Source: a virus. Taken from it: DNA of 34,940 nucleotides. The stretch is from positions 1 to 34,940 of the IMG/VR virus record IMGVR_UViG_3300033145_003410. The stretch is one strand, 5' to 3'. This document shows, one piece after another, positions 4,578-29,232 of this stretch (its first letter is position 1; each line of letters begins with the position of its first letter). The notes under the pieces were generated by a model. The model saw only the letters and a list, made by a program, of their open reading frames with translations, did no database searches and was not told the DNA's origin. A program made the position numbers and the translations under genes.

Positions 4578-4619
4578 GCCAAACCAAGCAGAAGCCGTTT
4601 GGCGAGAAGGGGGCACTTG

Positions 4620-6854: not shown

Positions 6855-7214
6855 ATGCCAACATACGACTACAAATGTAGGGAGCACGGCCCGTTTGAGG
6901 CGTCGATGCCCCTCAACGAATATCGCGCTCAGGTCGAGTGCCCGATTTGTGGCGAGACGTCTAACCGCACGTTTTACCGTCCCCCCGTTTGCCACGGACT
7001 GTCCGATGGCCCCGGTAGCTGCGTGAACCAGATTGTGTTCAACAGGCCCGATCTCGAAAAGGAGTACCGCATAACCTTTCAGAAAATGGAAGAGTCAGGC
7101 CGCTTTCGCGATCCCAGCGTTAAAAAGCAGGCCGAGTTTATGATGGACTGGGCCAAGGCGCAACCAAAAGAGAAAATAGACTACGACAAGGGGGGCCATC
7201 CATTAGATGACTGA
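6855..7214 (+). CDS. FmdB-type zinc-ribbon protein
   Basis: A 119-residue protein. The N-terminus MPTYDYKCREHG followed by ECPICGE is the FmdB-family zinc-ribbon layout, with ligands C8, H11, C29 and C32; the usual second Cys is His here. Bacterial FmdB proteins were named as putative regulators; small zinc ribbons of this type also occur in phage head operons, where the role is unknown. The remainder is a charged helical tail. No Shine-Dalgarno lies immediately upstream; the nearest is 36 nt away, across the hairpin. The 3' end overlaps the next gene by 8 bp. Confidence 0.8.
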   Translation: MPTYDYKCREHGPFEASMPLNEYRAQVECPICGETSNRTFYRPPVCHGLSDGPGSCVNQIVFNRPDLEKEYRITFQKMEESGRFRDPSVKKQAEFMMDWAKAQPKEKIDYDKGGHPLDD

Positions 7215-7866
7215 ACAAGATGTTATAGACGCCCTACTGTTGGTTATCCCAAAAGACAGAGAGAATGCCGAGCGTATAGCGAAGGGGCATCTCAAGAAAG
7301 CCATCTTGAAGGTTGGGCGCATGAAGGGTGTGGACTTCAACCGTGATATTCAGACCTTCACCCTGACGACCGGCAAAAAGGAATACGTCATCGGCAAAGA
7401 CATTCTGAGTGGTGTCGCCGGGATATGGGATATAGACGAACTATACCTGACGGACGAAACGCGCTGGCCGGTAAAAGTTATCGGTATCGGAGATTTTGAT
7501 TCGTATGCGCGAGGGAGCACGTCTACGGGCAAGCCACAGATAGCGACGGTGCATTCTTCGACGGCGACCCTTGAAGTCTGGCCGATACCCGACTCCGCCT
7601 ACAACATGAAGGCGCTCGTCAGAAAACAGATCGAAAACTTTGACGACATACCGACCGGGTATCACGATGTACTGGTGGACTACGGGATCGCCTCGATAGC
7701 GGTTGCCGGTAATCCGGCCGTAGCGGTTGACTTTGCCCGGAGTGGACTTGCCGACGTGCAGGCGGACTCCCGCACCTCATGGGAGGGTAATACCATTCTC
7801 GTTGAGCGACACCTTGGTGGTTCCAGCGGGGCGACCCGCGCTGACTCCGGTAACCTGCGTCCGTAG
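7207..7866 (+). CDS. Head-tail adaptor-like protein
   Basis: A 219-residue protein overlapping the zinc-ribbon gene by 8 bp. An N-terminal helical part (MTEQDVIDALLLVIPKD, then KAILKVGRMKG) is followed by a beta-rich part with a segment ending in LEVWPIPDSAY and then KALVRKQI. That pattern, at this genome position, is common in podovirus adaptor proteins that sit under the portal. There is no signal peptide, unlike the next gene, which looks like a distant relative. The gene ends in TAG followed directly by a G-run that serves as the next ribosome site. Function is inferred from synteny and pattern. Confidence 0.65.
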   Translation: MTEQDVIDALLLVIPKDRENAERIAKGHLKKAILKVGRMKGVDFNRDIQTFTLTTGKKEYVIGKDILSGVAGIWDIDELYLTDETRWPVKVIGIGDFDSYARGSTSTGKPQIATVHSSTATLEVWPIPDSAYNMKALVRKQIENFDDIPTGYHDVLVDYGIASIAVAGNPAVAVDFARSGLADVQADSRTSWEGNTILVERHLGGSSGATRADSGNLRP

Positions 7867-7874
7867 GGGGGGCT

Positions 7875-8546
7875 ATGAAACGACTGATCTTGATAGCTGT
7901 GTTGCTGGTGTTTGCGGCCAGTGTGTCGGCGGCCGACTTTATGGATTCGTTCGCCGAGTATCAAACACAGATACGCCTGAATCTCGGCGTGACAGCAACG
8001 AATACCAGCTATGCCGCCGATACGACACTGAACAGGGTTATCCGGTTGAGTGCTATTCACATCAATAACCTGCTGAAGACCTATAAAACCATCAACGAGT
8101 TTGTGACCGTGTACCACGACGGCAGTTACGATCTGGATAGCGTTATCGGCGTGATCTACGTGGAGTGGTCCAAGAACGATTCGGTGAAGGCGCTTGTCTA
8201 CGCACCCAAGGGTCAGTGGTATCAGCTTGAGGTACAGGAGATCGCCAGCCAGAAAGATTATAAGAAGCGTCCGAGTTACTACGATTTTGTAGATGGGACG
8301 CTTTATTTGTTCCCCGCGCCGGTTATCGCCGGTGATACGATCAGGGTGACGGGTTGGGAGAAGATCGGCAACATCTCTGCGGCGGCCTCGCTGACGGACA
8401 TTAAGCAACGATACCGAACGGCGGTACTCGCCTACGCTACTTACCGGATGGCCCTCTCTCGCACTCATCCATCGACGCAACTTTTCAAGGGCGACTACGA
8501 AGAGGCAGTCATTTCGCTCAAGGGGGCCGTCGATGACAAGAATTAG
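7875..8546 (+). CDS. Second adaptor-like neck protein carrying a Sec signal peptide
   Basis: A 223-residue protein. ATG 7875 follows a seven-G run (7866-7872), which fixes the start. Residues 1-19, MKRLILIAVLLVFAASVSA, are a textbook signal peptide with a predicted cut after Ala19. The mature part has an adaptor-like beta signature (YYDFVDGTLYLFPAPV, then DTIRVTGW) and a C-terminal helical segment, resembling its upstream neighbour in overall plan. A cleavable export signal on a neck protein is odd, because tailed-phage necks are normally assembled in the cytoplasm. Overlaps the next gene by 14 bp. The alternative is a secreted accessory protein not in the virion. Confidence 0.65.
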   Translation: MKRLILIAVLLVFAASVSAADFMDSFAEYQTQIRLNLGVTATNTSYAADTTLNRVIRLSAIHINNLLKTYKTINEFVTVYHDGSYDLDSVIGVIYVEWSKNDSVKALVYAPKGQWYQLEVQEIASQKDYKKRPSYYDFVDGTLYLFPAPVIAGDTIRVTGWEKIGNISAAASLTDIKQRYRTAVLAYATYRMALSRTHPSTQLFKGDYEEAVISLKGAVDDKN

Positions 8547-11052
8547 TTTTGTGTTGTTGCTGATCTTTGCGGCTGTCGGTTATGCGATAGGTGCCGAGGT
8601 GCTGCAGATCAGGAACTTCAAGGGGTTGAATACCATTGCGGGTGATTTTGCAATACAACCGAACGAGGCGCGGCGGGCGCACAATGTCGATCTGGGGCGT
8701 AACCCCGGCTCGCTTACCAAGCGATACGGGTACGATTCGATCTCTACGATAAGCGGGATGGACTCGATTGTCAATAACGGCATTTACCCCGCCTATTACT
8801 CTGACGGCACACAGCAACTCGTGGTCGTGGCGGACTCTGCGGGCGTTAGCTATGGTGGGGTTTATCTGACACAGAAAGGTTCATCTTGTCTGGACGCCGA
8901 CAGTCTGACGAAGATTTGGAACTACTGGGGGACGCACAACCCGCCGTCATTTACCATGTGGGATGATTGCGTCTATATAGTAAACGGATCGCACAAGGGT
9001 ATGGTCTGGAACGGTGACGTGGCACGGTCTTACCCGATTCGTGCGCCGAGTGAGCCGACGATTGTGCCGCTTGACGGGCATGGCAACGGGAACATTAACG
9101 GCGAGGTCCGGTATTTGGTGCTTGCGAAACGCGACACCGTGTGGGATGGGAACCCGTTCGGCGGCCCGTACAATGACACTCTCGCGGAGGGTGTTGTTAG
9201 TCAGCCGGTCAAGGTTGCGAACGGCTCTGTAATGCTAACAAACTTTCTTTGGCCCACCACCGACAGCCTCTACAATAGTTACCCCGACGGTATCCGATAC
9301 CTCATCTATCGCACAACTTCTAATCCGGGTCCGCTTAGAATAACCACGGAGTTTTATCAAACAATGTCGTTTAAGGTTCCCAACGCGGACTCCGCGAATA
9401 GCTATATATATATTGACACCTGCTCCGACTCACTAATTCAAGTACACATGCAGCCATACTCACAAAAGAGCGGTGGTTTGTTGGACCTCGAGATGAAGGG
9501 GCGTGATTCGACGGGCGGTGTGTTCCCCCGCTATGGCGCTCCGGGATTTGTTTCTGCTACAATAACAGCCGATAGCGGTGTTGTCAATCTGTTTACGGGT
9601 GTGCCGGAACAGGTCGATTCGCTCGGTGTGGCCTATGCCGTGACGTTCATAGACACCGCGACGGCCATCGAGTCGGATACGGGCCGGTCGCTGTTCGTGT
9701 TTTCCCCGTTGGCGCATCCCAACGATAGTGTGTTGAAGACGGTGACAATAAATTTGCCGAATCCGGTGGATACCGGCCTCGTTAAAAACATCTATCGGGC
9801 ATTGGTGAGACAACTAACGTATAAGGACTCAACATACGAGTGGGAAGGGGGAACGTCTGTTGGTGATGCCATGTTTGATAGGGAGGAATATGGCCATAAG
9901 TGGATTGATTATCTCGCGGTTGACACCGTGGTTGTTGATTACTATCACTTAGTGGGACAGGTAGCAAGTGGTGATACAGTTTTTACGGACAGCATCTCCT
10001 ATGATTCGCTTAGTACTCGCAGAAAATACTACAAGAATGCGGCCCCGTCGTTGCTTAACCAGATATTTACCCACAATGGCAAGATGTTCGGGCTTCAGGG
10101 GTCACGCTTATTCTTTTCCGATCTATTGTGGGGCGCGGACACAATACAGACGTGGGGTGCGATGGCGTTCCAGTCGTTCAACGAGGATGATGGTGATATA
10201 GGCACGGCAGTATGGCCGGAGCGAACGGCCATCAGGTTTATGAAGAACTTCTCGAACTTCAACCTGTACAGCGATCTAAGCAAGAGGGAAATATCGGGTT
10301 ACTATGGGTGTGTCGCGCCATTGTCTCATACCGCCGGACTCGGTGGGCATTACTTTTTGTCGAGCGCGGGTGTTCTACGTGAAACAGAGGGCGGCGAGTT
10401 GGAGCGAACGTTCAATACTGAACTGGTGTCTGCCCCGCTCCGCAACTTTGACGACCTGTCGATTACGACCAAGAAGAACGCCGTCGCCGCTTACCATAAC
10501 CAGAAGTATATGCTGTCCATCGGCGATACGACCTATGTCTATGACGAGCGGGTTGACGGTTGGGTTACGTGGGACTTGACGTTTGGCGGCACCGCCCTAT
10601 ACGGGACCGAGACTGATGTCAATTTCATACCCGGCGACACACTGTATTTCTTCAAGCCGGGTGACTCTACTCTGTGCCGTTACGGCACCTCGGAGTACGA
10701 CAACTATCAGGCGGGCGTCGATAGCACGAACATCCCCTTTTATTGGTACACTGGTCCGTTGCTGGCCAGCGACCAGCACGTTATGATTGACAAGATCGGG
10801 CTGTGGACCAAGAGTGAAGACGCTATCAATGCATACTACGTGCAGATATTCGATCAGAACGATACTTCGCGGGGGACTGAGCATTTTGCGCCGCTAACCT
10901 CGCGCTACTCCACTCAGTCATTTCCCGTAAATCAGGGTAACTATTTCAGAATCCAAAGCGGCTCGAATATAATCGTTGGCAACATGAATAGTACAATCAT
11001 AGACGGCATGGATATTTATTGGACTACAGTGGGCGCACCGCCCGCGAAGTAG
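8533..11052 (+). CDS. Large tail/nozzle-like protein with a Sec signal peptide
   Basis: An 839-residue protein starting at ATG 8533, 6 nt after AAGGGGG (8520-8525), with no plausible later start for more than 70 codons. Residues 1-21 (MTRISFVLLLIFAAVGYAIGA) form a signal peptide with a likely cut after the AIGA motif. The segment ARRAHNVDLGRNPGSLTKR near residues 46-64 resembles the opening of large beta-propeller-like tail tube or nozzle proteins of podoviruses. The rest is beta-rich, full of Asp, Thr, Tyr and Gly. Its order after two adaptors fits a tail nozzle. The export signal on such a protein is unexpected and is treated separately below. Confidence 0.65.
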   Translation: MTRISFVLLLIFAAVGYAIGAEVLQIRNFKGLNTIAGDFAIQPNEARRAHNVDLGRNPGSLTKRYGYDSISTISGMDSIVNNGIYPAYYSDGTQQLVVVADSAGVSYGGVYLTQKGSSCLDADSLTKIWNYWGTHNPPSFTMWDDCVYIVNGSHKGMVWNGDVARSYPIRAPSEPTIVPLDGHGNGNINGEVRYLVLAKRDTVWDGNPFGGPYNDTLAEGVVSQPVKVANGSVMLTNFLWPTTDSLYNSYPDGIRYLIYRTTSNPGPLRITTEFYQTMSFKVPNADSANSYIYIDTCSDSLIQVHMQPYSQKSGGLLDLEMKGRDSTGGVFPRYGAPGFVSATITADSGVVNLFTGVPEQVDSLGVAYAVTFIDTATAIESDTGRSLFVFSPLAHPNDSVLKTVTINLPNPVDTGLVKNIYRALVRQLTYKDSTYEWEGGTSVGDAMFDREEYGHKWIDYLAVDTVVVDYYHLVGQVASGDTVFTDSISYDSLSTRRKYYKNAAPSLLNQIFTHNGKMFGLQGSRLFFSDLLWGADTIQTWGAMAFQSFNEDDGDIGTAVWPERTAIRFMKNFSNFNLYSDLSKREISGYYGCVAPLSHTAGLGGHYFLSSAGVLRETEGGELERTFNTELVSAPLRNFDDLSITTKKNAVAAYHNQKYMLSIGDTTYVYDERVDGWVTWDLTFGGTALYGTETDVNFIPGDTLYFFKPGDSTLCRYGTSEYDNYQAGVDSTNIPFYWYTGPLLASDQHVMIDKIGLWTKSEDAINAYYVQIFDQNDTSRGTEHFAPLTSRYSTQSFPVNQGNYFRIQSGSNIIVGNMNSTIIDGMDIYWTTVGAPPAK

Positions 11053-11060
11053 GGGGAGAT

Positions 11061-11570
11061 ATGCAGGGAACTAATACTAATTGGTATAACAACGTTGTCA
11101 GTATGCCCCCGCCACAGCAGGATGACGCCCTAACGAAGTTGCTGGGTATGCTCGGCAACAGTGGCGGGATGTTCGGTATGGGCGATACGGCTACTGGCGG
11201 GATGCTGTCGTTCGGGGGTTCGGCCCTTGAGGGTATCGCCAATATGGTCAGCGGGCCGTCAAGGGCGCAAAAGACGGCGAAGAAAACATACAATCTGGCC
11301 GAGAACAGGTTGGGCCAGAACGTGCTCAACCCGGATCAGTACATGGCCGATTACATGCGGTCGCGTGGGCCGGAAAACGCCCGTCGCTCAGAGCGTTTGA
11401 ACGAGCGGTTTGGTCTGGACTCCGGCGTGGCGCAATCGCAGTTGGCTTTCGATATGGAGGCTCCACTGGCGAAGTTCATGCTACAAACCAAGTCGATGAA
11501 CGACCAGATGAAGTCGCGCAACGATAACATGCTATTGTCGCTGATGGCTGGCCTCAGCCCGCAGATGTAG
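11061..11570 (+). CDS. Putative internal virion protein, small
   Basis: A 169-residue protein from ATG 11061, placed 5 nt after a GGGGGAGAT ribosome site that begins at the TAG stop of the previous gene; an in-frame upstream ATG at 11019 lies inside that gene and is rejected. The N-terminal third is rich in Gly, Met and Ser (LLGMLGNSGGMFGMGD), the remainder helical and Arg/Asn/Met-rich. It has no signal peptide. The position after the nozzle-like gene and before a very large protein is where podoviruses carry ejection proteins. No family recognised. Confidence 0.6.
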   Translation: MQGTNTNWYNNVVSMPPPQQDDALTKLLGMLGNSGGMFGMGDTATGGMLSFGGSALEGIANMVSGPSRAQKTAKKTYNLAENRLGQNVLNPDQYMADYMRSRGPENARRSERLNERFGLDSGVAQSQLAFDMEAPLAKFMLQTKSMNDQMKSRNDNMLLSLMAGLSPQM

Positions 11571-11580
11571 GGGGGATGAA

Positions 11581-12480
11581 ATGTCACAGCAAGAACCGAG
11601 CGGCATTCTTGAGGTATTGGCGCGTGCGGCAGGCGCAGGCGTTAGCAATGCGGCGCAGAATTTTCGCGGCGATCAACAGCAGAAGAAGGCGGATGCGCTT
11701 CAGGGTCTAATGGCGATCCAGCAGCAGCAGGAACAAGAGCGTGCGGTCGAGACACACCGACAGGCGATGCTTCTTGGTGGATTGAGGATGGATAAGCTCA
11801 ACCACGACATTAACATCGCGCAGATGAAGGCTACTAATTTGGCACTACCCGATCCGACACCAACAGAGTTGGGTAAGGCCAAGGCTACACAGGAGAATGC
11901 CTACAATGCCGCCCTTGACCCGACCACACAAATGCCAACCATGCCAGACCTAACGGAGTATATGCCTATCGTGAATCAGCTCCAGGAGTTGGGGCTGGAC
12001 TTCAATATGGCAATCGGTGCCGACGGCCAACCGACACTTAATGTCGCGCCACTTCCCACCCCGAAGCCGCCGACCACCGCATCCGTTCGCGCAGAAGAGA
12101 AGCACGAAACATCCAAGCGGCAGAAGGCTGCGCTCCTTAAGGCCAATAAACTCTTTCGGGAAAAGATACAAGCGTCAGAGCGCGGTAACATGGGGCTTGA
12201 GACCATAGACAGCCCCTATGATTTACAGACTGTTATCGCCGAACTGAAGCGCACTGGTGGGCGATACGATGAAGACATCATGTTCGACGACAAGGACACC
12301 ACGCTGATCGATTCATTTCAGGTCATCATGGACGAATACGGTGGGGCTGAAACAGTCGAAGAGAACAGCAAGAAACTGGACGCCGACAGCGAGGCGTGGG
12401 GCGTGAAGGAATACGGCAATAAGTGGAACACAAAGACGGCAGCCGAAAAGCGGCGCATCGTGGAGCATTACCGTAAGTGA
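11581..12480 (+). CDS. Putative internal virion protein, Gln-rich coiled coil
   Basis: A 299-residue, almost wholly helical protein with a GGGGG ribosome site abutting the previous TAG stop. Residues 30-75 are Gln-rich (for example AIQQQQEQERAVE) and 165-200 are Lys/Ala/Glu-rich, suggesting coiled coils. The central part is Pro/Thr-rich (PTPKPPTTAS), a probable flexible linker. No Cys, no signal peptide. It ends in a GTGA overlap with the large protein that follows, so their synthesis is coupled; a joint role in an ejected complex is inferred from position. Confidence 0.6.
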   Translation: MSQQEPSGILEVLARAAGAGVSNAAQNFRGDQQQKKADALQGLMAIQQQQEQERAVETHRQAMLLGGLRMDKLNHDINIAQMKATNLALPDPTPTELGKAKATQENAYNAALDPTTQMPTMPDLTEYMPIVNQLQELGLDFNMAIGADGQPTLNVAPLPTPKPPTTASVRAEEKHETSKRQKAALLKANKLFREKIQASERGNMGLETIDSPYDLQTVIAELKRTGGRYDEDIMFDDKDTTLIDSFQVIMDEYGGAETVEENSKKLDADSEAWGVKEYGNKWNTKTAAEKRRIVEHYRK

Positions 12481-15098
12481 GGGACATCGACAAAGATTTA
12501 GCGGCCATACCAAGACGTGACATTGATGCCGATCTTGCCGCGTTACCTAAACGGGATATTGACGCCGACTTGGCCGCATTAGATGATCCCAGCATGCCCC
12601 AGTGGGACCTGTACGGCATGTCTGCCAGTTCGGATGATCGGTTTCCGGCTGCGAGTACGAACGTCCGCGTGTCGCCATATGGGTACGAGAAGCATTCTAT
12701 CCCCGATAAGGTAGTGGGTGGCATTTATCCCGGCCTAACCAGTGGGCTTGTTGCTCCGTGGCATGACGATTTGGCGGGTGACCCGTGGTATAAGGCTGGT
12801 GAAATGATCGGTCTTACCCTGCCGTTCGGACTGGCGACAAAGGCGCTGAAGGCTGTGCCGTGGTTAGCAAAACTCCCGCGTCTCGTATCGCCTGTCGTTC
12901 GTGGTGGGCTGACCGGAACCGTACTTGGCACCGCCGAGGAAACGGGCGAGGTTATCCGAGGTGGAGAGTTCGATGTCGGTAACGTCGCCGAGGAAGCGGC
13001 GCTCTTCGCAGCTTTTGACGGGGTGTTGTCTGCTGCCGGTAAGGGGATCAGTAAACTTGTCGCCAATCGGAGTGGTAAGAAATTCGCCAGAGAGATGCGG
13101 CAAGCTATTAAGGATGGTCGCATTGAGCCAGTCAACAACCAAGAAATTGTGCGGATGGCTACGATGGTTGAGGATGGTAGCGCTGGTAAGCTAATTAAGG
13201 ATGGACCCCTTCGCGCTGGTATCGCCAAGATTGAGTCAATGGGTCCCTCAGGCAAAAAGATCACGGCCTACGATAGATCGGCTGGACGCGCCGATGTTGT
13301 CGGTGGACAACAGGCGTTAATGCAGTCACCCGACGTGACGTGGGGTGAGGTCGGTACGATGATGGGGGCGGCGGAGAAAAAGCCAATTACTTCCGTGCTC
13401 GGCACATTAGATAAACAGGTTGAAACCGGACTCAGGTTACATGAGCGATATGGGACCAAGGAACTAATTTACCACCCGTGGCGTGCCGCCGATAACGCAT
13501 CGGCCACAGAGATGCGGAGCATACTGGATGAATTTAGGGGTCTCATAAAAGACAACTTCAAGCTCGGCACCCGCGGGCGGGCATCTAAGCGGGTAATGAT
13601 CTATGCCACCTCACGTCAGCGCGGCGGTATGGATGTGCTGGCGCAGTCTGGCGTAAAAGAGATTCCGACACTGACAAAATCAGAGATGACCACTTACAAT
13701 CACATGCGTCAGCATCTTGAGCGTGCCTACAACGACATAAACCGCATGAGAATATCGGCTGGTCAGCAGCCGTTCCCAAAGCAAGAAAACTACTTCACGT
13801 TTATGCGAACACTTGAGGGCGAGACTGAACGCGGGTTCGACGCAACAAGTATGTCGCTCAATCGGTTCGCCAAACCAAGCAAGACTCCGTTCCGCTTTGA
13901 ACGTGGCCGCGTATTAGATGATTACGGACCCGTGGAGATGGATGCTTTTGGGGTATTTGAGCGGTACATGCGGTCGGCCACCAAGCATAAGCACGTCACC
14001 CCGGTTATAGCCAAGTCCCGGAAGCTATTAGACGAAACATTCTATAACGGTTTTTCGCTGAGGGATTATAATCCAAGCGCGTGGAACGATCTTAACGGTT
14101 GGGTGAATTTTGTCGCTGGCGTTAGACCGTGGATGGCACCGCGACAGATCGAACGGGCGGCGGGCGTCCTAAACGAAAACATGGCCTTCTCCGTCTTGGG
14201 CTACAATATACGCACCGCCGTTCAACAGCCATCGGCCATGAAAAATACCGCCTCTGAGATTGGCGTGCGTTGGGCGCTGGAGGGTATAAACGGGTTTATG
14301 GATAAGAAGATGCGGAACTTCGCGTTCAAGCACAGCAACCACCTATCTGGCCGTGATTTTGACATATCCGTACAAGATGCCTTCAGGGTAGCCAATAGTA
14401 CCAAAAGGGCGCTTGGCAAGGCGGGCCTGAAGCCCCTTCAGTGGCTTGATCTCCAAACGGCTACAGCATCTTGGATTGGGGCGTATAAGCGCGGTAGGTC
14501 TGTGTTGAAAATGTCAACCAAAGACGCCATCAACTTTGCCGATGACGTGGTGGTACGTACACAGGCGTCAGCCGCACCGGGCGATTTGGCCCCGATTCAG
14601 CGCACGCCCCTCGGTAAAACCCTTTCCATGTTTCAGACGTTCGTGATTAACGAGTGGGGATACATGACAAGAGACTTGCTTAACAAGAAAGGCGCGGCCA
14701 CCACCGACATTTCTTCGTTTCGCAAGATACTTACATTCATGGGGGGAACGATGGCGCTCAATGCAATGACGGAAAGTATCGGCATTAACTCCCCGTCACC
14801 CGCGCCAGAGTGGGAGTATTATAGGCGACTCCAGAAGACCGGATCGCACGTCGAAGCACTCAAGGGTGCTGGCCTTGAGACCCTTACGGCAGTACCAACT
14901 ATTGGTGGTGGCGCACGATATGGCGGGAGTGTGCTTGGCGCTGGGGCACAACTATTCTCTGATGTCGGCAAGGTCTTGGGTGGCAATACGTCCACGGAGA
15001 AGGCGGTTGAAACGGCGGGCAAGGTGGTTGGTGTGCCCGGCACGGTTCAGGCCAAGAAGTTTCTACGACTACTCAGGGAAAATAATAGAAAGAAATAG
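12477..15098 (+). CDS. Large putative ejection (internal virion) protein with N-terminal 12-residue repeats
   Basis: An 873-residue protein starting at GTG 12477 in a GTGA overlap. The N-terminus carries three near-identical 12-residue units of the form RDIDADLAALPK (residues 2-36). After a linker, residues roughly 95-210 are Ala/Gly-rich and hydrophobic (LTLPFGLATKALKAV, VRGGLTGTVLGTAEE), able to contact membrane; the remainder is long and helical. There is no signal peptide. Large size, membrane-active segments and position before the fibres fit the biggest ejection proteins of podoviruses (T7 gp16-like role, not sequence). I see no transglycosylase active site. Confidence 0.6.
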   Translation: MRDIDKDLAAIPRRDIDADLAALPKRDIDADLAALDDPSMPQWDLYGMSASSDDRFPAASTNVRVSPYGYEKHSIPDKVVGGIYPGLTSGLVAPWHDDLAGDPWYKAGEMIGLTLPFGLATKALKAVPWLAKLPRLVSPVVRGGLTGTVLGTAEETGEVIRGGEFDVGNVAEEAALFAAFDGVLSAAGKGISKLVANRSGKKFAREMRQAIKDGRIEPVNNQEIVRMATMVEDGSAGKLIKDGPLRAGIAKIESMGPSGKKITAYDRSAGRADVVGGQQALMQSPDVTWGEVGTMMGAAEKKPITSVLGTLDKQVETGLRLHERYGTKELIYHPWRAADNASATEMRSILDEFRGLIKDNFKLGTRGRASKRVMIYATSRQRGGMDVLAQSGVKEIPTLTKSEMTTYNHMRQHLERAYNDINRMRISAGQQPFPKQENYFTFMRTLEGETERGFDATSMSLNRFAKPSKTPFRFERGRVLDDYGPVEMDAFGVFERYMRSATKHKHVTPVIAKSRKLLDETFYNGFSLRDYNPSAWNDLNGWVNFVAGVRPWMAPRQIERAAGVLNENMAFSVLGYNIRTAVQQPSAMKNTASEIGVRWALEGINGFMDKKMRNFAFKHSNHLSGRDFDISVQDAFRVANSTKRALGKAGLKPLQWLDLQTATASWIGAYKRGRSVLKMSTKDAINFADDVVVRTQASAAPGDLAPIQRTPLGKTLSMFQTFVINEWGYMTRDLLNKKGAATTDISSFRKILTFMGGTMALNAMTESIGINSPSPAPEWEYYRRLQKTGSHVEALKGAGLETLTAVPTIGGGARYGGSVLGAGAQLFSDVGKVLGGNTSTEKAVETAGKVVGVPGTVQAKKFLRLLRENNRKK

Positions 15099-15108
15099 GG
15101 GATGACGG

Positions 15109-15297
15109 ATGTGTGTTGACGATAAGACTTGGGGACTTTTAATGGACACCGTTGAACGCATCGAAAAGAAGGTTGACAAGATCAATGGTCGCGTTTACGC
15201 CCTTGAAAAATGGAAGTGGGGCGTCATGGGCCGGGTTGCCGGGGGTGCGGCTGTCGTCTCTCTCATAGTCGGGGTAATTATCGCACTTATCAAATAG
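15109..15297 (+). CDS. XhlA-like coiled-coil plus single membrane helix protein
   Basis: A 62-residue protein. ATG 15109 lies 7 nt after the GGGG that overlaps the preceding TAG stop. Residues 12-36 form an amphipathic helix (MDTVERIEKKVDKINGRVYALEKW) and residues 41-61 a single membrane helix (RVAGGAAVVSLIVGVIIALI). This short coiled coil plus C-terminal anchor is the plan of XhlA-type holin partners and of some tail-accessory proteins. Because another membrane protein sits beside the endolysin, this one may be a holin partner, antiholin or DNA-entry helper. Family assignment is from architecture only. Confidence 0.6.
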   Translation: MCVDDKTWGLLMDTVERIEKKVDKINGRVYALEKWKWGVMGRVAGGAAVVSLIVGVIIALIK

Positions 15298-15298
15298 A

Positions 15299-15321
15299 CC
15301 ATTCGCAACGAAACAACCACA
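15299..15321 (+). repeat. Conserved leader repeat, copy 1
   Basis: CCAT, two variable bases, then GCAACGAAACAACCACA (15305-15321). The same arrangement occurs at 22238-22260 with 21 of 23 identical bases. This copy ends 10 nt before the start codon of the first fibre gene, and AGGGG begins at its last base, giving that gene its ribosome site. It is not translated here (it follows the TAG of the preceding gene), so it acts, if at all, as DNA or RNA. Confidence 0.75.
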
Positions 15322-15331
15322 GGGGCTACAA

Positions 15332-16486
15332 ATGAATCGCAATATATCGGGGCGCAACCTGCTGCTCCTGATCTTCGCTGGCATCCTGCTGGCGTCGCTC
15401 ACTATAGACGTTGGCGACATACGGGGGCAGGGACAGATTCCATTCTTCCACCGCACCAAGAAAGTCGATACATCCAGTTATTGCTGGCTGACGGACGGCG
15501 GCGATACGATTGTTAAGGTGCTTAAGATCGGCAACCAAGCCTACCTTATGACTGCCGACGGTGATACGCTGAATATCGGCGACACCAACGTCGTTACCAT
15601 CGACAGCCTACTGATAGCTCAGTGGATATGCCTCAATAACGATACCATTACATCTTGGCCTACCGCTCTATTCGACGGCGAAAATTTAACCCTCAATCAG
15701 GACGAATCGGCGGACTCAGCTATTATTGTGGCGGACGGACCGTCTGGGAACATGGCCGCGATGATATTTAAGCAAGGTTCGTTGCGGTTTGATTCCGATG
15801 TCCAAGTTGACGGGAAACTGTTTGTCAATGACGGTACTCTACAGGTTGATTCTGGTCTCATCATAAACTCTATAAACCTCGACACCAGCAAGATATACTT
15901 CTATCACGTGACCGGCGAAACCGCTGACGGTCGGTATCTGTACTGCATTGAATCTGAGTCCCGTTTTGTCTTTGACACCAGCCTCCATATTCTCGGTAAT
16001 CTCTCCGCAACCGGCAGTGTCAATCTACCGAACGGATCAATTGACGATTCCTGTCTGGCTGAAACATATCTGACCAGCACGGGGACCGCCGCCGACGTTG
16101 ACACGGCTGGTACGGCAATAGCGGCAGCCCTTGTGGACAGGGCTAATGTCCACGACACCCTGACAAAATCATTTGTCGTGGCCTCGATAGAGGACACTCA
16201 CGACTTCCCCTTCTGGATGACAATCGACGCGATCACGATCATAGCGGCTAATGGTGTTTGTATCGCCGGGACGAACGTGGTCGGGTGTCTCATGGAATAC
16301 GACAATGACGGCGCTAATCCCGTAGTCTGTAACTCGTCCGATTGGACGTTTACGACGGGAGAAGAAAGGACCACCTCTGTGAGTAACCCGTCGATAGATG
16401 CCGGTGATTACTTGGGTTGGAAAACAACGTCTGTTTCCGGGACGGTTACTTCCTTCACTTTAACCATAGAATATACGGTGAACTAA
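15332..16486 (+). CDS. Secreted-type tail fibre protein
   Basis: A 384-residue protein with an AGGGG ribosome site 6 nt before ATG 15332. Residues 1-25 (basic NRNISGR, then LLLLIFAGILLASLT) are a signal peptide or anchor. The body is beta-rich with repeated Asp-Gly and Asp-Thr turns (MTADGDTLNIGDTNV) and a segment LHILGNLSATGSVNLPNGSI that resembles the repetitive shaft pieces of phage fibres and autotransporter-like trimers. The C-terminal 120 residues form a separate beta domain (SSDWTFTTGEE onward). First of four consecutive, overlapping secreted-looking fibre genes; a receptor-binding role is inferred. Confidence 0.6.
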   Translation: MNRNISGRNLLLLIFAGILLASLTIDVGDIRGQGQIPFFHRTKKVDTSSYCWLTDGGDTIVKVLKIGNQAYLMTADGDTLNIGDTNVVTIDSLLIAQWICLNNDTITSWPTALFDGENLTLNQDESADSAIIVADGPSGNMAAMIFKQGSLRFDSDVQVDGKLFVNDGTLQVDSGLIINSINLDTSKIYFYHVTGETADGRYLYCIESESRFVFDTSLHILGNLSATGSVNLPNGSIDDSCLAETYLTSTGTAADVDTAGTAIAAALVDRANVHDTLTKSFVVASIEDTHDFPFWMTIDAITIIAANGVCIAGTNVVGCLMEYDNDGANPVVCNSSDWTFTTGEERTTSVSNPSIDAGDYLGWKTTSVSGTVTSFTLTIEYTVN

Positions 16487-17049
16487 TGAAATGGCTCTGG
16501 TTACTTTGGTTGCTCCTGCTTCCCTGTCTGGTCTCGGCGCAAACTGAATTTGGCAAGACGACCACCGGGGGGTCGGCCCGATCCATCCTCGACTACGGCC
16601 AAGCGTTGGTTGGTACTGGCTACACCTATACCGCCCAAGAGGGCGATCAGATTACAGCAGTGTACGCTCACTGTAAGCGGACCGGGGGCGCCAAGTATTT
16701 TGATATAATGGTCTATTCGATGCCAAGTGGAACGATTGACGGCGGCTCCCGACTTGCGGCGGCGGAAACTGTTCTTGCGGATACGGCTTATGGCTGGTAC
16801 GGGGCTACCGGCTTATCTCTATCGTTGACGGCTGGTGTTGAATACGCGATTGCCATCGGCCAGATAACCGGCACAATCACAGTGCGCTATGATACCGAGG
16901 ATGCGGGCGAACTGAGTTACGATAACGACCAAGAGGATTTACCCGCGACATGGGGCGAAACAGGCACGAGTTCGGCGGCGATCTGTGTTAAAGCCGTCGT
17001 AACAAATACAGGCGGTGGCTCGACAGGTCAGGTGATAATCATCCAATGA
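16486..17049 (+). CDS. Secreted beta-sandwich fibre-region protein
   Basis: A 187-residue protein. ATG 16486 overlaps the preceding stop as TAATG; an earlier in-frame ATG at 16417 lies inside the fibre gene and would bury the signal peptide. Residues 1-18 (MKWLWLLWLLLLPCLVSA) are a clear signal peptide with a V-S-A cleavage site before Gln19. The mature part is Gly/Thr-rich beta (DYGQALVGTGYTYTAQEGD) like a jelly-roll or carbohydrate-binding sandwich, ending in a short Gly-rich tail. No Shine-Dalgarno is visible, so translation is probably coupled. Function unknown beyond a fibre-cluster location. Confidence 0.6.
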   Translation: MKWLWLLWLLLLPCLVSAQTEFGKTTTGGSARSILDYGQALVGTGYTYTAQEGDQITAVYAHCKRTGGAKYFDIMVYSMPSGTIDGGSRLAAAETVLADTAYGWYGATGLSLSLTAGVEYAIAIGQITGTITVRYDTEDAGELSYDNDQEDLPATWGETGTSSAAICVKAVVTNTGGGSTGQVIIIQ

Positions 17050-18896
17050 GATACTTGCTGCTGACATTCCTGCTACTGTTACCACTCACGGCGATGGCAG
17101 GGCAATACGAAGTAACCTCTCTGCCGGATACCATCTTTCAGGACGACCACTCGGTTGACGGTATCGATACGATCACACTGGCCGGGACAAAGGTAACATC
17201 TACCACAACCGGGCTGGTCTTTCAATCCCTGTACGATGACGAGGTTTGCAACTGGATACTGGCCGGTAACGATGACACGCTTGAGTTCGGGACGGCCAGT
17301 GGCGACAAGATGTTTGGCCTGAAATTCATCGGGACCGGCACATACTACCCCTACAACATTAAGATTCAAGACCTGTTTGTCTATCACAATCCGGGGACAC
17401 CGGGCGATGCCGACAGTACCCGAACGATATATGTTCGTGGCGACAGTCTCTCGTTTGTCGATGTTGACGCGATTGTCAAGGGCACAGGGGGGATTCTTTT
17501 CGAGGCGAAGGGCGCATATATATTCAACAATTACATCGAGGGCGGTACATGGTCAAGCGAGGTAACGGAGTTTGGCAGTCGTTGTGAGTTCGACGCTACG
17601 GTAGTTGAGGCGAGTTCCCTGTATCACGGTTCCCTGCCGGAAGCGGGCGACTATCACATTGAGATCAACAACCTGAACATCGACGGTGGCCCGCATGTCG
17701 GGATAATGGTATATGGTTTCGACGCGACAAATTGGGCAACAGTCAAAATTCACGCCTGTACGGTAATGACCGACATGAGAAACGATCTCTACACAGAGTA
17801 TTCCGGTCTTTGTAAGTCGGCCGCTAATGCTTACGGTATTATGCTGGCGCGGATCACGGGCAAGACAGAGGTGTACGACAACTATGTTTATAGTGGAACC
17901 AGTCATGGCGGCAACAGGGGAATATACGTCTCCAGTATTCGGACTGCCGCTTCTGACACGGTTAAGATTCACGACAATGTAGTGGACGTACACGACGGCC
18001 CGACCGTTGAAATGGGGGACGATAGCCCTTCACACGGATTTAGGGCGCGGTACGCCCTCGGCAATCTGGAAGTCTACGACAATACTTTCATTTGTTCGGT
18101 TGACAGCGCGAGTGCGACAGACGATTACGGACTAAGTGCTCACCCGGTACGACTGTCCCTGACGGACGATACCGCCCAAGTAACGATTCGCAACAATACG
18201 ATTATCGCCAGAACGCTACATGAGGGTGGGACTACGGGTAACGGGATCACATTCGACGCGATTGACTATCCATACTTAGTTACGACCAAATACAACAATA
18301 TCACCAGCTTTGGGAATATCTACAAGTTCGGTGAGGTGAACGGTCAGGACGAGGGGCATACGGGTATCACCATGATCGGTGACACGGTTGCGTTTGGTGA
18401 TACAACCATTAATGAGAATACGTTCTATATCGGCCATCTGTCGAACAACTGGCTTTGCTCCTATAATAAGGCGCGTGATCTGGTTTACCAAAACGGAACC
18501 AGTGATACAAATATAGTCTTTTCGGCCGGGGGGACATCAGACATAACGATTCAACGAACGCTAAGTATTTATGCGATTGGTAACGACGGCCTTCCAGTCC
18601 CAAGCGCGGCGTGTACGACATGGAACGATTACGGACAGCAGGTATTGGCTGGATCGAGCGACATGAACGGGCTGGTGTCTGGTGTGGTTGGTTATTGGTA
18701 CGAGTCACGGGCCGACGCCGATTCAACGGGGTTCAACGATTTCATAATTCATGTCTGGAAAGACGACGATGTGGCTACCGATAGCAGCTTTACGGTTGGG
18801 TCGTCTGTGGCTGGCGGATTGGACTCGCTGGTTCTGACGGGGACTGGCGGCGGTAAATTATATCAGACGGTGAAGTATTTAGGAGGCAAGCGATGA
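17046..18896 (+). CDS. Tailspike-like parallel beta-helix protein with signal peptide
   Basis: A 616-residue protein starting in an ATGA overlap at 17046. Residues 1-18 (MRYLLLTFLLLLPLTAMA) are a signal peptide with an A-M-A cleavage site. From about 100 to 470 the sequence shows right-handed beta-helix character: repeated short strands separated by Asn/Asp/Gly turns (VKIHDNVVDVHDG, LEVYDNTFICS, VTIRNNTIIA). The last 120 residues form a separate domain starting near ITIQRTLSIYAIGNDG that resembles carboxypeptidase-regulatory-like beta sandwiches. Beta-helix spikes typically bind or degrade surface polysaccharide; no catalytic residues could be assigned. Confidence 0.7.
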   Translation: MRYLLLTFLLLLPLTAMAGQYEVTSLPDTIFQDDHSVDGIDTITLAGTKVTSTTTGLVFQSLYDDEVCNWILAGNDDTLEFGTASGDKMFGLKFIGTGTYYPYNIKIQDLFVYHNPGTPGDADSTRTIYVRGDSLSFVDVDAIVKGTGGILFEAKGAYIFNNYIEGGTWSSEVTEFGSRCEFDATVVEASSLYHGSLPEAGDYHIEINNLNIDGGPHVGIMVYGFDATNWATVKIHACTVMTDMRNDLYTEYSGLCKSAANAYGIMLARITGKTEVYDNYVYSGTSHGGNRGIYVSSIRTAASDTVKIHDNVVDVHDGPTVEMGDDSPSHGFRARYALGNLEVYDNTFICSVDSASATDDYGLSAHPVRLSLTDDTAQVTIRNNTIIARTLHEGGTTGNGITFDAIDYPYLVTTKYNNITSFGNIYKFGEVNGQDEGHTGITMIGDTVAFGDTTINENTFYIGHLSNNWLCSYNKARDLVYQNGTSDTNIVFSAGGTSDITIQRTLSIYAIGNDGLPVPSAACTTWNDYGQQVLAGSSDMNGLVSGVVGYWYESRADADSTGFNDFIIHVWKDDDVATDSSFTVGSSVAGGLDSLVLTGTGGGKLYQTVKYLGGKR

Positions 18897-21772
18897 AAAG
18901 GTTTCTGGCGGCGATAATTATCTTGATGGTTGCGGTTGGTCTTCAAGCGGGGACGTACACCAAGCCTTCATACTACGTAAAGACATCGGACTGGGATTCG
19001 GTACGAGTATTCATTAAGGTAATGAACAACGGGGCCGAGGTTGATCTTTGTGATACCCTGATAACGGATAACGACACACTTGTTTATACCCTTGACGAAG
19101 ATTCGGCCTATCACGGGCACGAGCAATGGTATGCCAGTGGAGCGTTGTTCGGGCAACCTTCGTGGACTTGGGACCGCCAGAGAACGCAAGCGAACGTGGT
19201 CCAGATTTCCGGTGACGGGACGGCGGCTGATAACTCGGAATACTTCTTTGATGGGACGGGGGTTAATAACGACCTTGATATTAAAATTCGCTCACTTGAG
19301 ATAACGTCCGATGTGGGGGATGCTTTCATATCTCGGACCTCGGCATCCAATTCGTTCGGGTTTAATATACAGTCCACACAGTATGTCGGTATGTATGTGT
19401 CGGGGCAGGTTGATGGATTACATCTTGACGCCACGACCGGCAATGCAATTGAGGCGGCGGGTGGCGACATCCTCGCCGATATCATCGGCACCGTCACCCC
19501 GACCGATACGGTTTCGACGGGTGACACCCTTGCAGTCATGCCCTCCGAGTGGGTAGCGGCTGACTCGGCGGGGTTTCAGGGTGAGGCGGCCAGCCTTGAT
19601 TCTACGGCGGTATACGGTGCGGTGACGCAGGTCGCGGTTGATTCCTCTGACCTCTATCAGGGTTCAGCCAGTTTAGATACCACAGACATTAAGACCATGA
19701 TCCACGGCAACTTTTTGCCCTACACGCCGCCCTCACCGGTGAAGCGGTACATCTACGGGTCGGGCGACAACACTGACGGCCTGACGTGGGCGACCGCATG
19801 GACTGGATTCGACTCGATCAAAACACTAACATCCCCGACAAAGATATGGGTCGGACCCGGCACCTATTCCAGCGTAGCTTGTTCGCTCAACACGCACGGC
19901 CTTCATATCGAGTCGGTTTACGGTGCGGCGGCAACCAGACTGCGCGGCACTAACGACACGCTTTACACGAATCGCATGGTGTCGATCAACGCTGGTAGTG
20001 ACAGTATCTTGACGGACTTCAAGATCGACGGCTTTTCGTTCGCCCACAGGGTCGGTTACGGCGCGGACGATCCGGAGTTCAAGTGCGCTATCTGGATATG
20101 CGACTCAGTTGAATCGGTCGAGATTGCCAACTGTTTATTCCCCGCCGACTCCAACTATAAGGCCATCTCATCCGAAAACGATTGGGTGCGGTACTTGGAT
20201 ATTCACGACAACGAGTTTGCCGGTACTCACGTTCACGCGATTGACGTAGCGGGTAAATACGGCCTAATCCACAACAACACCTTTTTTGATATGCGCGACT
20301 CAGCATCGCTCGGTGTTCGTAACCCGATCCAGATTTACACGCTCGGTACGCACAATGCCGTCTTCGAGAACTACATAATGGATGCCCTTCACGGTATCGC
20401 CATCAACGGCGGCGACACTAACCTTGTTGCGAGTAACTATATCGGCTTGGGCAGCATGGTCTCACAATCTAATAGCGTAGATAATGTGTTTGCGGGTAAC
20501 TACGGCGGCTCACTCGGCGCGTATAAGCGACGCGACACCGGCTGTGATGCCTTGTCGCCCTTCGTGGAAGAAGAAGCATACGATTACTGGTCGGCGTTAC
20601 AGGGCGCGATGGGCGGTTACAATATCTTTTACTCGCCCTGTCAGGTGTCGAACAACTGGCCCGACTCGACCGATCCCGCTTTGTGGGGTTCATCTACGGG
20701 CACGGTTCAGTTGACGTCGGCCCGGTATCTTGAGGGCTATTCGCGGAGCATGTATATCGAGGAGGGGTCGATTAACACGCCGGTCGTGGCGGTTGACACC
20801 GGCACCTACATTATGTCGGCCTACGTCTGGCTAACAAGCAGCACTGCCGACTCCGCTTATTTCCAAGCGTACAAGGCCGACGCTACGGCCCAGACATGGA
20901 CGGACGGCGAGACGGTTGAGTATATTGTCGGCCATACCGGATGGCGCAAGATTTCGCACACGATCAGGCTGACGACTGACACGCTGTACTACTTCACTGT
21001 CGGAGCGAACACTGGCGACAGCGCGTATTTCGCTAATGTCGCGGTTCAGCCGTTCGCGGCTACGGGGAATCAGTTAGCACTAACAAAGGGCGAGGTTGCC
21101 GATACGTTGGGAACCGCACACGGGGCCGGTACGTGGACTACTGGCGGCGATGGCGGTGGGTCTAATACTATTACGGTCTATGCGGTTGATACGTCTGGTA
21201 CGGACGAAGCTAAGGCCGATACAAAGCTCACGGTTGTCAATGATGCTGGCTCGCACGTGAGTGCACAATGGACCAATTCGTCTGGCTATATCGCTTTCAA
21301 GCTCGACGACGGTTCTTATACGGTTAAGGGCCGCAAGACCGGATACGTCTTCAGCGACTACGACCTGACGGTTTCCGGCGCGAGTACGGATACGGTGCTC
21401 GGTTACGATATTGAGGTCGGCACGCCGGGCGACGCCGACTTGTCGCGGGTGTATGGGTACTTGCGCGATGTGAGCGATAACCCGCTCATCGGTGCGGTGG
21501 TTACGGCCAGTAGGGTGAAGGGTACTAACGCTGTTGATTCGAGCGGCACGGGCGTGATTATCTCGGCCAACGTAGCTTCGGCGGCAACGGACACCCTTGG
21601 ATACTTCTTCATCGACCTGTACCGAACGGGTAGCTACGCCGACACAACGCGGGGATTCTACAATATAAGCGGCCAACACGACAAGAAGAAGGTGTTTGAT
21701 GTTAAGCAACTTTACATACCGGATTCCGGCAACGTGAATCTGGTGGATACACTGGCGAATAGGGGTAACTGA
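18893..21772 (+). CDS. Giant beta-helix spike with carbohydrate-binding-like and regulatory-like beta domains
   Basis: A 959-residue protein, ATG 18893 preceded by AGGAGG (18881-18886) and overlapping the upstream stop (ATGA). Residues 1-19 (MKRFLAAIIILMVAVGLQA) are a signal peptide. Residues about 280-540 look like a beta-helix (SVEIANCLFPADSN, LDIHDNEFAGTHVHAI, GLIHNNTFFDMRDS). About 600-720 resembles a carbohydrate-binding sandwich (TGTYIMSAYVWL, TGWRKISHTIRLT). About 760-840 and 850-950 are two beta domains of carboxypeptidase-regulatory type (DDGSYTVKGRKTGY; LIGAVVTASR). A secreted adhesin-like multi-domain protein is equally compatible. It is followed directly by the endolysin in a TGATG overlap. 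Confidence 0.7.
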   Translation: MKRFLAAIIILMVAVGLQAGTYTKPSYYVKTSDWDSVRVFIKVMNNGAEVDLCDTLITDNDTLVYTLDEDSAYHGHEQWYASGALFGQPSWTWDRQRTQANVVQISGDGTAADNSEYFFDGTGVNNDLDIKIRSLEITSDVGDAFISRTSASNSFGFNIQSTQYVGMYVSGQVDGLHLDATTGNAIEAAGGDILADIIGTVTPTDTVSTGDTLAVMPSEWVAADSAGFQGEAASLDSTAVYGAVTQVAVDSSDLYQGSASLDTTDIKTMIHGNFLPYTPPSPVKRYIYGSGDNTDGLTWATAWTGFDSIKTLTSPTKIWVGPGTYSSVACSLNTHGLHIESVYGAAATRLRGTNDTLYTNRMVSINAGSDSILTDFKIDGFSFAHRVGYGADDPEFKCAIWICDSVESVEIANCLFPADSNYKAISSENDWVRYLDIHDNEFAGTHVHAIDVAGKYGLIHNNTFFDMRDSASLGVRNPIQIYTLGTHNAVFENYIMDALHGIAINGGDTNLVASNYIGLGSMVSQSNSVDNVFAGNYGGSLGAYKRRDTGCDALSPFVEEEAYDYWSALQGAMGGYNIFYSPCQVSNNWPDSTDPALWGSSTGTVQLTSARYLEGYSRSMYIEEGSINTPVVAVDTGTYIMSAYVWLTSSTADSAYFQAYKADATAQTWTDGETVEYIVGHTGWRKISHTIRLTTDTLYYFTVGANTGDSAYFANVAVQPFAATGNQLALTKGEVADTLGTAHGAGTWTTGGDGGGSNTITVYAVDTSGTDEAKADTKLTVVNDAGSHVSAQWTNSSGYIAFKLDDGSYTVKGRKTGYVFSDYDLTVSGASTDTVLGYDIEVGTPGDADLSRVYGYLRDVSDNPLIGAVVTASRVKGTNAVDSSGTGVIISANVASAATDTLGYFFIDLYRTGSYADTTRGFYNISGQHDKKKVFDVKQLYIPDSGNVNLVDTLANRGN

Positions 21773-22134
21773 TGCAGTTTAAGACAACGCAGATAGCCAG
21801 CGATTTCCGTAACACCAACGAACTGACGCTCAAGCAACAGCAGATACGCGAGTACGCCGACCTGATCGACAAGATTAGTGTGTTGACGGGGCACGGTGAG
21901 ATAACGATCACGGATATGCTGCGCTCCGGCGATAGATGGATTCACAGCCTACACCACAGAAACTACGGGCAAGCGGTTGATATTAGGGTCCGCGATAAAA
22001 CGATGTGGTGGTTTGCGGCTATGGCTAAGATTGGCGATTTCATCAACGATCTCAATCCAAAGTTTCGGATGAATCCACATTGGGAGTTATTGAAGACGGA
22101 GAACCGTCACATACATATCGAAATTCGCAACTGA
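21772..22134 (+). CDS. Endolysin, M15-type zinc peptidase
   Basis: A 120-residue single-domain enzyme that should cut peptide cross-links or stems of peptidoglycan during lysis. The zinc site is visible as H61/H62 followed by G66-x-A68-x-D70 (HHRNYGQAVDIR), a variant of the SxHxxGxAxD motif with two extra residues, and the C-terminal H113-I-H115 (NRHIHIEI). No signal peptide or membrane segment is present, so release should depend on a holin. It starts as TGATG overlapping the spike gene and ends just before a strong terminator. D-Ala-D-Ala carboxypeptidase versus L-Ala-D-Glu endopeptidase specificity cannot be told apart. Confidence 0.8.
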   Translation: MQFKTTQIASDFRNTNELTLKQQQIREYADLIDKISVLTGHGEITITDMLRSGDRWIHSLHHRNYGQAVDIRVRDKTMWWFAAMAKIGDFINDLNPKFRMNPHWELLKTENRHIHIEIRN

Positions 22135-22271: not shown

Positions 22272-22613
22272 ATGAACATATTCAAGCCAATAGATGCACT
22301 CATTAAATGGAGGATGAAAGTCATTATGAAGGATTTTATTCAACCGATCCTTGACCTTGTTATGTCCATCGTGGACAGGTACGGGGTCAAATCACTGGTC
22401 GCTATGGGCGGTGTCGCTGCCCTGTGGGACTTAACGAAAACCGGCACGGTGCCCGGTGAGTGGGGCGCAATAGCCATTGCCGCTATCGTGGTTGGCTACT
22501 TCGTGGTCCGCCGACTGGAGGGCATTGAGGTGGCGCATTTTGTGCACGAAGAGGAAGAGCCGGTCAAGATGAAACTGGACAAAGCTAAACCCTACGACGG
22601 AGTGCCGCTATGA
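22272..22613 (+). CDS. Holin-like membrane protein
   Basis: A 113-residue protein with an amphipathic N-terminal stretch (FIQPILDLVMSIVDRYG, about 22-38) and a membrane helix at about 64-80 (WGAIAIAAIVVGYFVVR), plus a weaker hydrophobic segment at 40-53. The C-terminus is charged. Small size, hydrophobic helices and position right after the endolysin support a holin that permeabilises the inner membrane. ATG 22272 lacks a Shine-Dalgarno; in-frame ATGs at 22314 and 22326 follow GGAGG (22309-22313) by 0 and 12 nt, so 22326 is an alternative start. ATGA overlap with the next gene. Confidence 0.6.
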   Translation: MNIFKPIDALIKWRMKVIMKDFIQPILDLVMSIVDRYGVKSLVAMGGVAALWDLTKTGTVPGEWGAIAIAAIVVGYFVVRRLEGIEVAHFVHEEEEPVKMKLDKAKPYDGVPL

Positions 22614-22801
22614 GTGGCCAAGAGCGGGCGCAAGAACTCTCGCGGGCCGAGTTTAACGAGGTGATAATTGATCTGCTGGGGCGGGTGCGGGAGACCTACG
22701 GACTCGATGGCGAGTGTGACTGCTGCGACGGTACATGCGACTGCGGTTGTCTATGTCACGATATCACCAGAATCATCAACAAACTGGAGAAAGAAGAATG
22801 A
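22610..22801 (+). CDS. Cys-rich microprotein, unknown function
   Basis: A 63-residue protein starting in an ATGA overlap with the holin-like gene and ending in another with the beta-barrel gene. Residues 36-50 contain seven cysteines and a histidine in a metallothionein-like cluster (CDCCDGTCDCGCLCH), flanked by two acidic amphipathic helices. There is no signal peptide, so metal binding in the reducing cytoplasm is more likely than disulphides. The context is the lysis cassette. No family recognised; a metal-sequestering or metal-sensing role is speculation. Confidence 0.7.
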   Translation: MSGQERAQELSRAEFNEVIIDLLGRVRETYGLDGECDCCDGTCDCGCLCHDITRIINKLEKEE

Positions 22802-27233: not shown

Positions 27234-27424
27234 GTTTTCTCCTGTTCTTTCGGTTGTCTTGATTGGTAGAATATACATCCGAAGTCGGCACGGACCCGCT
27301 GGTAGCCGCCGTAGTGTGTTGTGCGGATGCTTACGGAGTAGTTTCGGCAGTCACCGTGCGGTAGCCTACGGGGGAAGATGGTGTTCTCGCGCACCCACCA
27401 CTTGCAGGTTCGACACGTATTCAT
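27230..27424 (-). CDS. Four-cysteine microprotein, paralogue of the gene at 28074-28262
   Basis: A 64-residue protein starting MNTCRTCKWW, with cysteines at 4, 7, 26 and 50 (CxxC, then GDC and FGC), a probable small zinc site. The gene at 28074-28262 has the same start (MNTCRTCRWW), spacing and FGC-x-F ending. CxxCxWW microproteins are common in phages but have no assigned function. It is coupled by ATGA overlaps to the ligase upstream and to ssb downstream. Ends in Glu-Lys-Thr because its last codons are the ribosome site of ssb. Confidence 0.75.
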   Translation of the reverse strand: MNTCRTCKWWVRENTIFPRRLPHGDCRNYSVSIRTTHYGGYQRVRADFGCIFYQSRQPKEQEKT

Positions 27425-29221: not shown

Positions 29222-29232
29222 TGTCCGGCTCC
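29117..29232 (-). repeat. 17-bp direct repeat containing two start sites
   Basis: AGTCATTGTCCGGCTCC on the + strand at 29117-29133 and again at 29216-29232, 99 bp apart. Read leftward each copy is GGAGCCGGACAATGACT: a ribosome site plus ATG. The interval is a multiple of three, so both ATGs are in one frame. Confidence 0.8.

Follow-up and report, generated by a model that had tools for sequence, protein, structure and literature searches.

Predicted Sec leaders divide the neck of an SU10-like podovirus between two adaptor-fold proteins

How does a tailed phage build its neck when part of that neck carries export signals? Tails of tailed phages are thought to join DNA-filled heads in the cytoplasm. 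The question is raised by IMG/VR virus record IMGVR_UViG_3300033145_003410, which was analysed from positions 1 to 34,940 (34,940 bases, the whole stretch, hereafter the window) with all genes translated. In this phage the genes for one neck adaptor, the nozzle and the fibres begin with leaders of the Sec type, and the head genes do not. An earlier inspection of the letters (the sequence-only reading) had noticed the leaders and the division, and missed where the border lies: it separates two adaptor-fold proteins and so coincides with a joint of the neck where one ring meets the next.

Leaders were tested with an in-house three-region score on N-termini (n-, h- and c-region), benchmarked on 46 complete proteins from a 50-kb stretch of Escherichia coli K-12. 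The score was passed by 9 of 11 Sec-exported proteins, 0 of 24 cytoplasmic proteins and 0 of 9 inner-membrane proteins (0 of 33 non-exported proteins), and by 0.33% of random N-termini taken from the mature parts of phage proteins. Eight of the 23 virion-side genes of the window passed: those starting at 1, 7875, 8533, 15332, 16486, 17046, 18893 and 22798. Against the 0.33% background the binomial probability of this count is about 1e-14 (own arithmetic). The same eight genes had been listed in the sequence-only reading as starting with a basic-hydrophobic leader, mostly with an A-x-A-type cut, and the benchmarked score bears this out for every one of them. In all eight leaders the n-region is basic, the hydrophobic h-region spans 11-16 residues and the c-region has a small-x-small pattern. 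Most combine a short h-region with an A-x-A-like site; in 8533 and 15332 the position of the cut is ambiguous. Small residues at -3 and -1 together with n-, h- and c-regions, as required for Sec and signal peptidase I, were found throughout; atypical cases are adaptor 2 of relative G002 and the nozzle of relative G006, both described below. The scores resemble those of Sec leaders from E. coli and lie far above chance; export of the leadered proteins is strongly predicted and likely.

Judged from their start sites, the leaders are translated. A ribosome-binding site stands immediately 5' of the leader ATG at 7875, 8533 and 18893, where a Shine-Dalgarno sequence (SD) had already been remarked on, and later starts are not conserved. 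The internal ATG at codon 23 of 7875 has no SD and is not conserved. In the nozzle gene, internal starts with weak SDs occur in the window (GTG23) and in G002 (TTG23), and none occurs nearby in G001. When internal starts were compared across the window, G001 and G002, no conserved start that skips the leader was found. The start of gene 1 coincides with the contig edge.

Two of the leadered genes encode neck proteins. Adaptor 2, on the tail side (7875..8546, + strand, as are all genes below unless stated otherwise), passes the Pfam cut-off for SU10_adaptor (PF24175; 5.4e-13), which upholds the claim that leaders sit on true neck proteins. Its leader (MKRLILIAVLLVFAASVSA, then ADF; 7875..7931; score 10.2) is followed by the SU10_adaptor domain, starting at residue 26, just past the leader. 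The SU10_adaptor match was obtained in all three members of the window clade, and adaptor 2 leaders are present in G001, G002 and G006. The next gene, 8533..11052, with leader MTRISFVLLLIFAAVGYAIGA followed by EVL, is assigned as the nozzle by position and synteny, next after the adaptor, and by homology to the leaderless nozzle of locus L024 (PHROG virion structural protein, 2.5e-28) and to gp24 of Arthrobacter phage Jasmine (HHalign, 1.7e-4). Searches with 8533 against Pfam and PDB gave no match; a beta-propeller hexamer is expected of an SU10-like nozzle. No extra copy of the adaptor 2 or nozzle gene is present among the translated genes of the window.

The other side of the joint is formed by adaptor 1, a leaderless head-side protein at 7207..7866. 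An HHalign comparison of adaptor 1 with adaptor 2, three sequences each, was negative (E-value 0.22), and the identity of 7207 was settled by the fold search and a larger hidden Markov model (HMM). Podovirus adaptors head the PDB Foldseek list for its AlphaFold2 (AF2) model (predicted local distance difference test, pLDDT, 52), with E-values of 4e-5 and weaker; the top 26 of 350,542 PDB chains are all adaptors of podoviruses or other neck proteins of phages. The model also matches viral entries named "head to tail adaptor". Adaptor HMMs detected 7207 with E-values of 1e-4 to 5e-4, the value of 5e-4 coming from an HMM made without the window clade. The predicted fold and the HMM together identify 7207 as a second adaptor-fold protein.

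No leader was found in the terminase, portal, scaffold, capsid, adaptor 1, ejection proteins or endolysin. The head-side genes of the window are: terminase large subunit, 531..2012 (Pfam Terminase_6N, 4.6e-7); portal, 1999..3837 (Pfam SU10_portal, PF23899, 9e-17, above cut-off; 49% and 45% identity to G001 and G002); an acidic scaffold-like protein, 4599..5576, named from its composition and its place between portal and capsid, with orthologues in G001 and G002; and major capsid protein, 5602..6810. The capsid matched PHROG major head protein (3e-14) and had no match in Pfam, including the SU10-type major capsid family PF17236. An ejection or internal-type trio (11019-11570, 11581-12480 and 12477-15098; span 11019..15098), named from position, has orthologues in G001 and partly in G002, and a leaderless trio is also found in G006.

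Relatives were retrieved from viral contigs with terminase, nozzle, capsid and mixed-terminase queries. Viral-contig scans with adaptor alone or capsid alone as query gave no match, and no prophage or host was found in two scans of genome contigs. The two nearest relatives, G001 and G002, have terminases with 52-55% identity to that of the window and an identical gene order; identity to them is 43% and 36% for adaptor 2, and 42% and 47% for the nozzle. All three phages have leaders on adaptor 2, the nozzle, the product of the pre-terminase gene, the fibres and the barrel-like protein, and in ten orthologue groups of head-side or internal proteins every member found is leaderless. The terminase large subunit of G002 (L002:8870-11203) is interrupted in frame by an intein that bears a LAGLIDADG domain (Intein_splicing 4.6e-9; LAGLIDADG_3 5.7e-10).

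In the wider survey, 80 loci were retrieved by scanning with an alignment of mixed terminases. The leader threshold of 8.3 was passed by 12 of about 1,015 genes in 87 relatives, with nine of the 12 lying within three loci. One of these three (L095) is the 43-kb phage G006, whose terminase was matched separately at 28%. A phmmer comparison of G006 proteins with the window clade found no similarity except one leadered fibre domain. The genes of G006 stand in this order: terminase, portal, scaffold, capsid and an adaptor-1-like gene, none with a leader; adaptor 2, an adaptor-like gene and the nozzle, all three leadered; and an ejection-type trio without leaders. Next come five leadered fibre-type genes, an endolysin and a holin that both lack leaders, and the barrel-like gene, which is leadered; an extra leadered gene follows the portal and precedes the scaffold. 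The capsid of G006 matched SU10_MCP (PF17236) at 1.4e-21 and its adaptor 2 was detected at 1.1e-8 with an HMM built without it; the value of 0.18 for the third adaptor-like protein is suggestive at most. By these assignments G006 shows the leader split of the window at the identical place. The clean split that the sequence-only reading had proposed to seek in related genomes is repeated, altogether, in three of them (G001, G002 and G006). In a quick terminase tree G006 sits on a long branch, and both a single and a repeated origin of leadered necks are compatible with that tree.

Close homologues keep the leader, and distant ones start downstream of it; the latter outcome had been named beforehand as one that would count against the leaders, so that the objection fails among the near relatives and applies among the distant ones. 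Adaptors of the other surveyed relatives, SU10, Jasmine, MW202795, L024, L031 and L032 have no leader and begin at the position of the mature end of the leadered ones, and the L024 nozzle begins with Met at this mature end. Because distant leaderless homologues begin there, the leader is an addition to the neck proteins. All virion genes of SU10, crAss001, Jasmine, MW202795 and MW202478 are leaderless. In crAss001, a Bacteroidota phage considered as a possible precedent, the sole leadered gene is Rz-like. In a second Bacteroidota phage, phi38:1, none of the genes checked was leadered, its portal-to-neck genes being outside the scoring. Eleven nozzle-related phages contained two leadered genes among 90, both in MW202554. 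The nozzle homologue of HMO-2011 (NC_021864, L036; 33543-35051) is annotated "amidase", probably a misnomer spread from a family label.

Fibre-type leaders combined with leaderless (or unseen) necks were found in L024, L066/L087 and MW202554. In MW202554 (L127, the Manatee Spring podovirus) the leadered gene at 13349-14374 has a Pfam Collar fibre match (1.7e-23) and starts with the leader MIVLVLLFLLLSISSADA, preceded by an AGGAGG site; the adaptor and nozzle of this phage are leaderless. Since fibre-only leaders recur in these other podoviruses, fibre export may have come before neck export. The leadered spike L066:11189-12193 and the similar leaderless spike L087:9631-10554 form a pair for leader gain or loss.

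The fibre region of the window contains four leadered genes. A fibre-like protein with fibre-type repeats and no family match lies at 15332..16486 (score 8.62), followed by a fibre or accessory protein at 16486..17049 (MKWLWLLWLLLLPCLVSA, then QTE; 8.84), a beta-helix spike-like protein at 17046..18896 (MRYLLLTFLLLLPLTAMA, then GQY; 8.96; leadered relatives in G001 and G002) and a large fibre or spike at 18893..21772 (MKRFLAAIIILMVAVGLQA, then GTY; 9.1; AGGAGG SD). The C-terminal 207 amino acids of 18893 recur in leadered G001 and G002 proteins of 422 and 1187 amino acids with unrelated bodies. At the other end, the beta-rich leadered protein before the terminase (1..516; MKRFGLLLFALFIGSMVAYG, then LSY; score 8.46) has leadered orthologues in the same place in G001 (37%) and G002 (42%). 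One or two such leadered beta-rich proteins lie 5' of the terminase throughout the window clade (window 1-516, L001:8759-9791 and L002:6879-8252).

The lysis genes adjoin the fibres. A putative leaderless endolysin at 21772..22134 has an M15-type SxHxxGxAxD..HxH-like motif (Pfam M15 only 0.099; orthologue in G002); because it is leaderless, a hole-forming holin is expected. Candidates are a holin-like protein with hydrophobic segments at 22272..22613 (orthologues in G001 and G002) and a holin-like small one-helix membrane protein without cleavable leader at 15109..15297 (weak orthologue in G001). A leadered outer-membrane-barrel-like protein at 22798..23271 (score 9.25) ends in GIGLHLWF, with a C-terminal aromatic residue, and in all four phages (the window, G001, G002 and G006) the leadered barrel-like gene is directly 3' of the holin. 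It suggests a diderm host and could serve in superinfection exclusion or in outer-membrane disruption at lysis. Sequence inspection of the early region, on the - strand, suggested a Gp37/Gp68-like (DUF5131) gene at 31276-32175, an RNA-ligase-like gene at 27421-28077 and a putative DNA methyltransferase gene at 29218-29901; none of the three is common to all relatives.

The best explanation found, and one given about an even chance of being right, is that these phages, podoviruses with head and neck of the SU10 type, assemble in two compartments. In the cytoplasm, capsid, portal, ejection proteins and adaptor 1 would be made, and heads would be filled with DNA and closed by adaptor 1. Adaptor 2, the nozzle and the fibres or spikes would be exported by the host via their Sec leaders, trimmed by signal peptidase I, and would wait beyond the inner membrane, in the periplasm, probably as unassembled subunits. 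The holin would then open large holes and release the leaderless endolysin, and adaptor-1-capped heads would reach the exported parts, which would assemble onto adaptor 1. That tail parts join heads after export at all is a proposition on which the evidence is evenly balanced. The fuller version, a lineage in which virion assembly ends with lysis and full heads closed by adaptor 1 meet the Sec-exported tail machinery only at holin-driven lysis, is plausible at slightly under an even chance. The sequence-only reading had held that exported neck proteins would not meet capsids; they could do so once holin triggering makes heads and periplasm continuous. Late joining is physically possible because holin holes are wider than the head and because the T7 adaptor is monomeric before it meets the portal; a typical podovirus head is narrower than the mean lambda holin hole. 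Lambda holes measure 100-1000 nm, with a mean of 340 nm (PMC10865782), and T7 gp11 stays monomeric until portal contact (PMC6702177).

Several other explanations were weighed. Chance, or mis-called starts with the true starts downstream, is given almost no weight: uncertain starts exist at gene 1 and in G002 (TTG/ATG choice), but the excess over random N-termini, the SDs at leader ATGs, the conservation of leaders in four genomes and the poor internal ATG of 7875 exclude it, by these comparisons, for the leader set as a whole. It is unlikely, if worth keeping in mind, that the leaders are retained as membrane anchors, so that neck and fibre proteins sit N-in/C-out and heads dock on a membrane-bound tail patch, or that the hydrophobic ends assist in penetrating the next host. 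The long, anchor-like hydrophobic stretch of the G006 nozzle and the ambiguous cut sites in 8533 and 15332 would fit such anchors; the short h-regions and A-x-A-like sites of most leaders would not, leaderless homologues function without the segment, and twelve greasy helices per adaptor ring are improbable. The body of an N-in anchored protein would in any case lie outside the cytoplasm.

Export might instead serve another purpose, such as receptor masking on the infected cell or its neighbours, superinfection exclusion or decoys, with virions using leaderless copies made through internal starts or leaky export. Leadered fibres without leadered necks in L024, L066, L087 and MW202554 agree with this, as do the weak internal starts in two of three nozzles. 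However, those starts are not conserved, there is no second adaptor 2 or nozzle gene, and it is left unexplained why adaptor 2 and nozzle, neither of which is expected to bind receptors, are leadered; this alternative is rated as distinctly improbable. Very little probability is assigned to a separate particle or envelope structure formed by the exported set, with adaptor and nozzle as co-opted secreted proteins that never meet the head-side products. With an adaptor fold on each side of the border, two objects would be conceivable, but there is one syntenic virion operon with a single adaptor 2, nozzle and fibre set, and the phage would be left tailless without adaptor 2 and nozzle.

For two-compartment assembly it counts that an adaptor fold lies on either side of the proposed joint, and that 18893 and its G001 and G002 relatives have in common only about 200 C-terminal amino acids, with the leader kept in each. 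Other observations weigh against it. The T7 tail, closed at its nozzle gates, seals the packaged DNA (PMC6702177), and adaptor 1 alone would therefore have to hold the DNA until lysis. Mean net charge of mature N-termini showed no bias (leadered -0.30 vs. leaderless -0.43). The adaptor 2 leader of G002 is short and without lysine or arginine from its ATG unless an upstream TTG is used, and the long N-terminal segment of the G006 nozzle is closer to a signal anchor. The AF2 model of the window nozzle (pLDDT 30) was unusable for fold search, the fibres at 15332-21772 are named from position and sequence style in the absence of family matches, and leadered-neck phages are known from metagenomes alone, as sequence.

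Among known systems, the window comes closest to the neck type of Kuravirus SU10 and T7 (portal, adaptor dodecamer, nozzle hexamer and fibres). SU10 portal and adaptor families, and in G006 the capsid family, are common to both by Pfam, as are the order terminase-portal-scaffold-capsid-adaptor-nozzle and the ejection proteins. The adaptor of SU10 (gp11) and of the other surveyed relatives is leaderless, whereas the window has a second adaptor-fold protein, and everything distal to it is leadered. The closest named terminases (26-28%) belong to podoviruses of the Jasmine and MW202795 type, which have an SU10-type adaptor and, in Jasmine gp24, a nozzle-like protein, but whose virion proteins are without leaders. 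Coat proteins of Ff filamentous phages have Sec leaders and are assembled at the inner membrane, so that virion subunits likewise pass the host export machinery before assembly; Ff phages, however, leave the cell by extrusion, without lysing it, and lack a tailed head, whereas the window encodes cytosolic tailed-phage heads and a canonical-looking endolysin and holin set. Exported phage proteins outside the virion (Lom, lipoprotein exclusion factors, secreted or signal-arrest-release endolysins and spanins) use the same host route but are not neck or tail parts; the barrel-like protein at 22798 may belong among them.

No precedent for leaders on the neck or tail proteins of tailed phages was found in the open-licence literature. 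As far as found, the trait is real, conserved and apparently undescribed in this podovirus lineage. The phages belong to a known kind and the predicted placement of export signals is new; the assembly route would be new in kind if confirmed. Leadered neck and fibre genes provide a clear genomic marker, countable in any virome, and the fibre-only cases suggest a stepwise origin. If the proposed route is true, export of half the neck would keep head and tail apart until lysis, would allow periplasmic folding of large adhesins, would explain the second adaptor, and would change the meaning of "eclipse" and of lysis timing for such phages.

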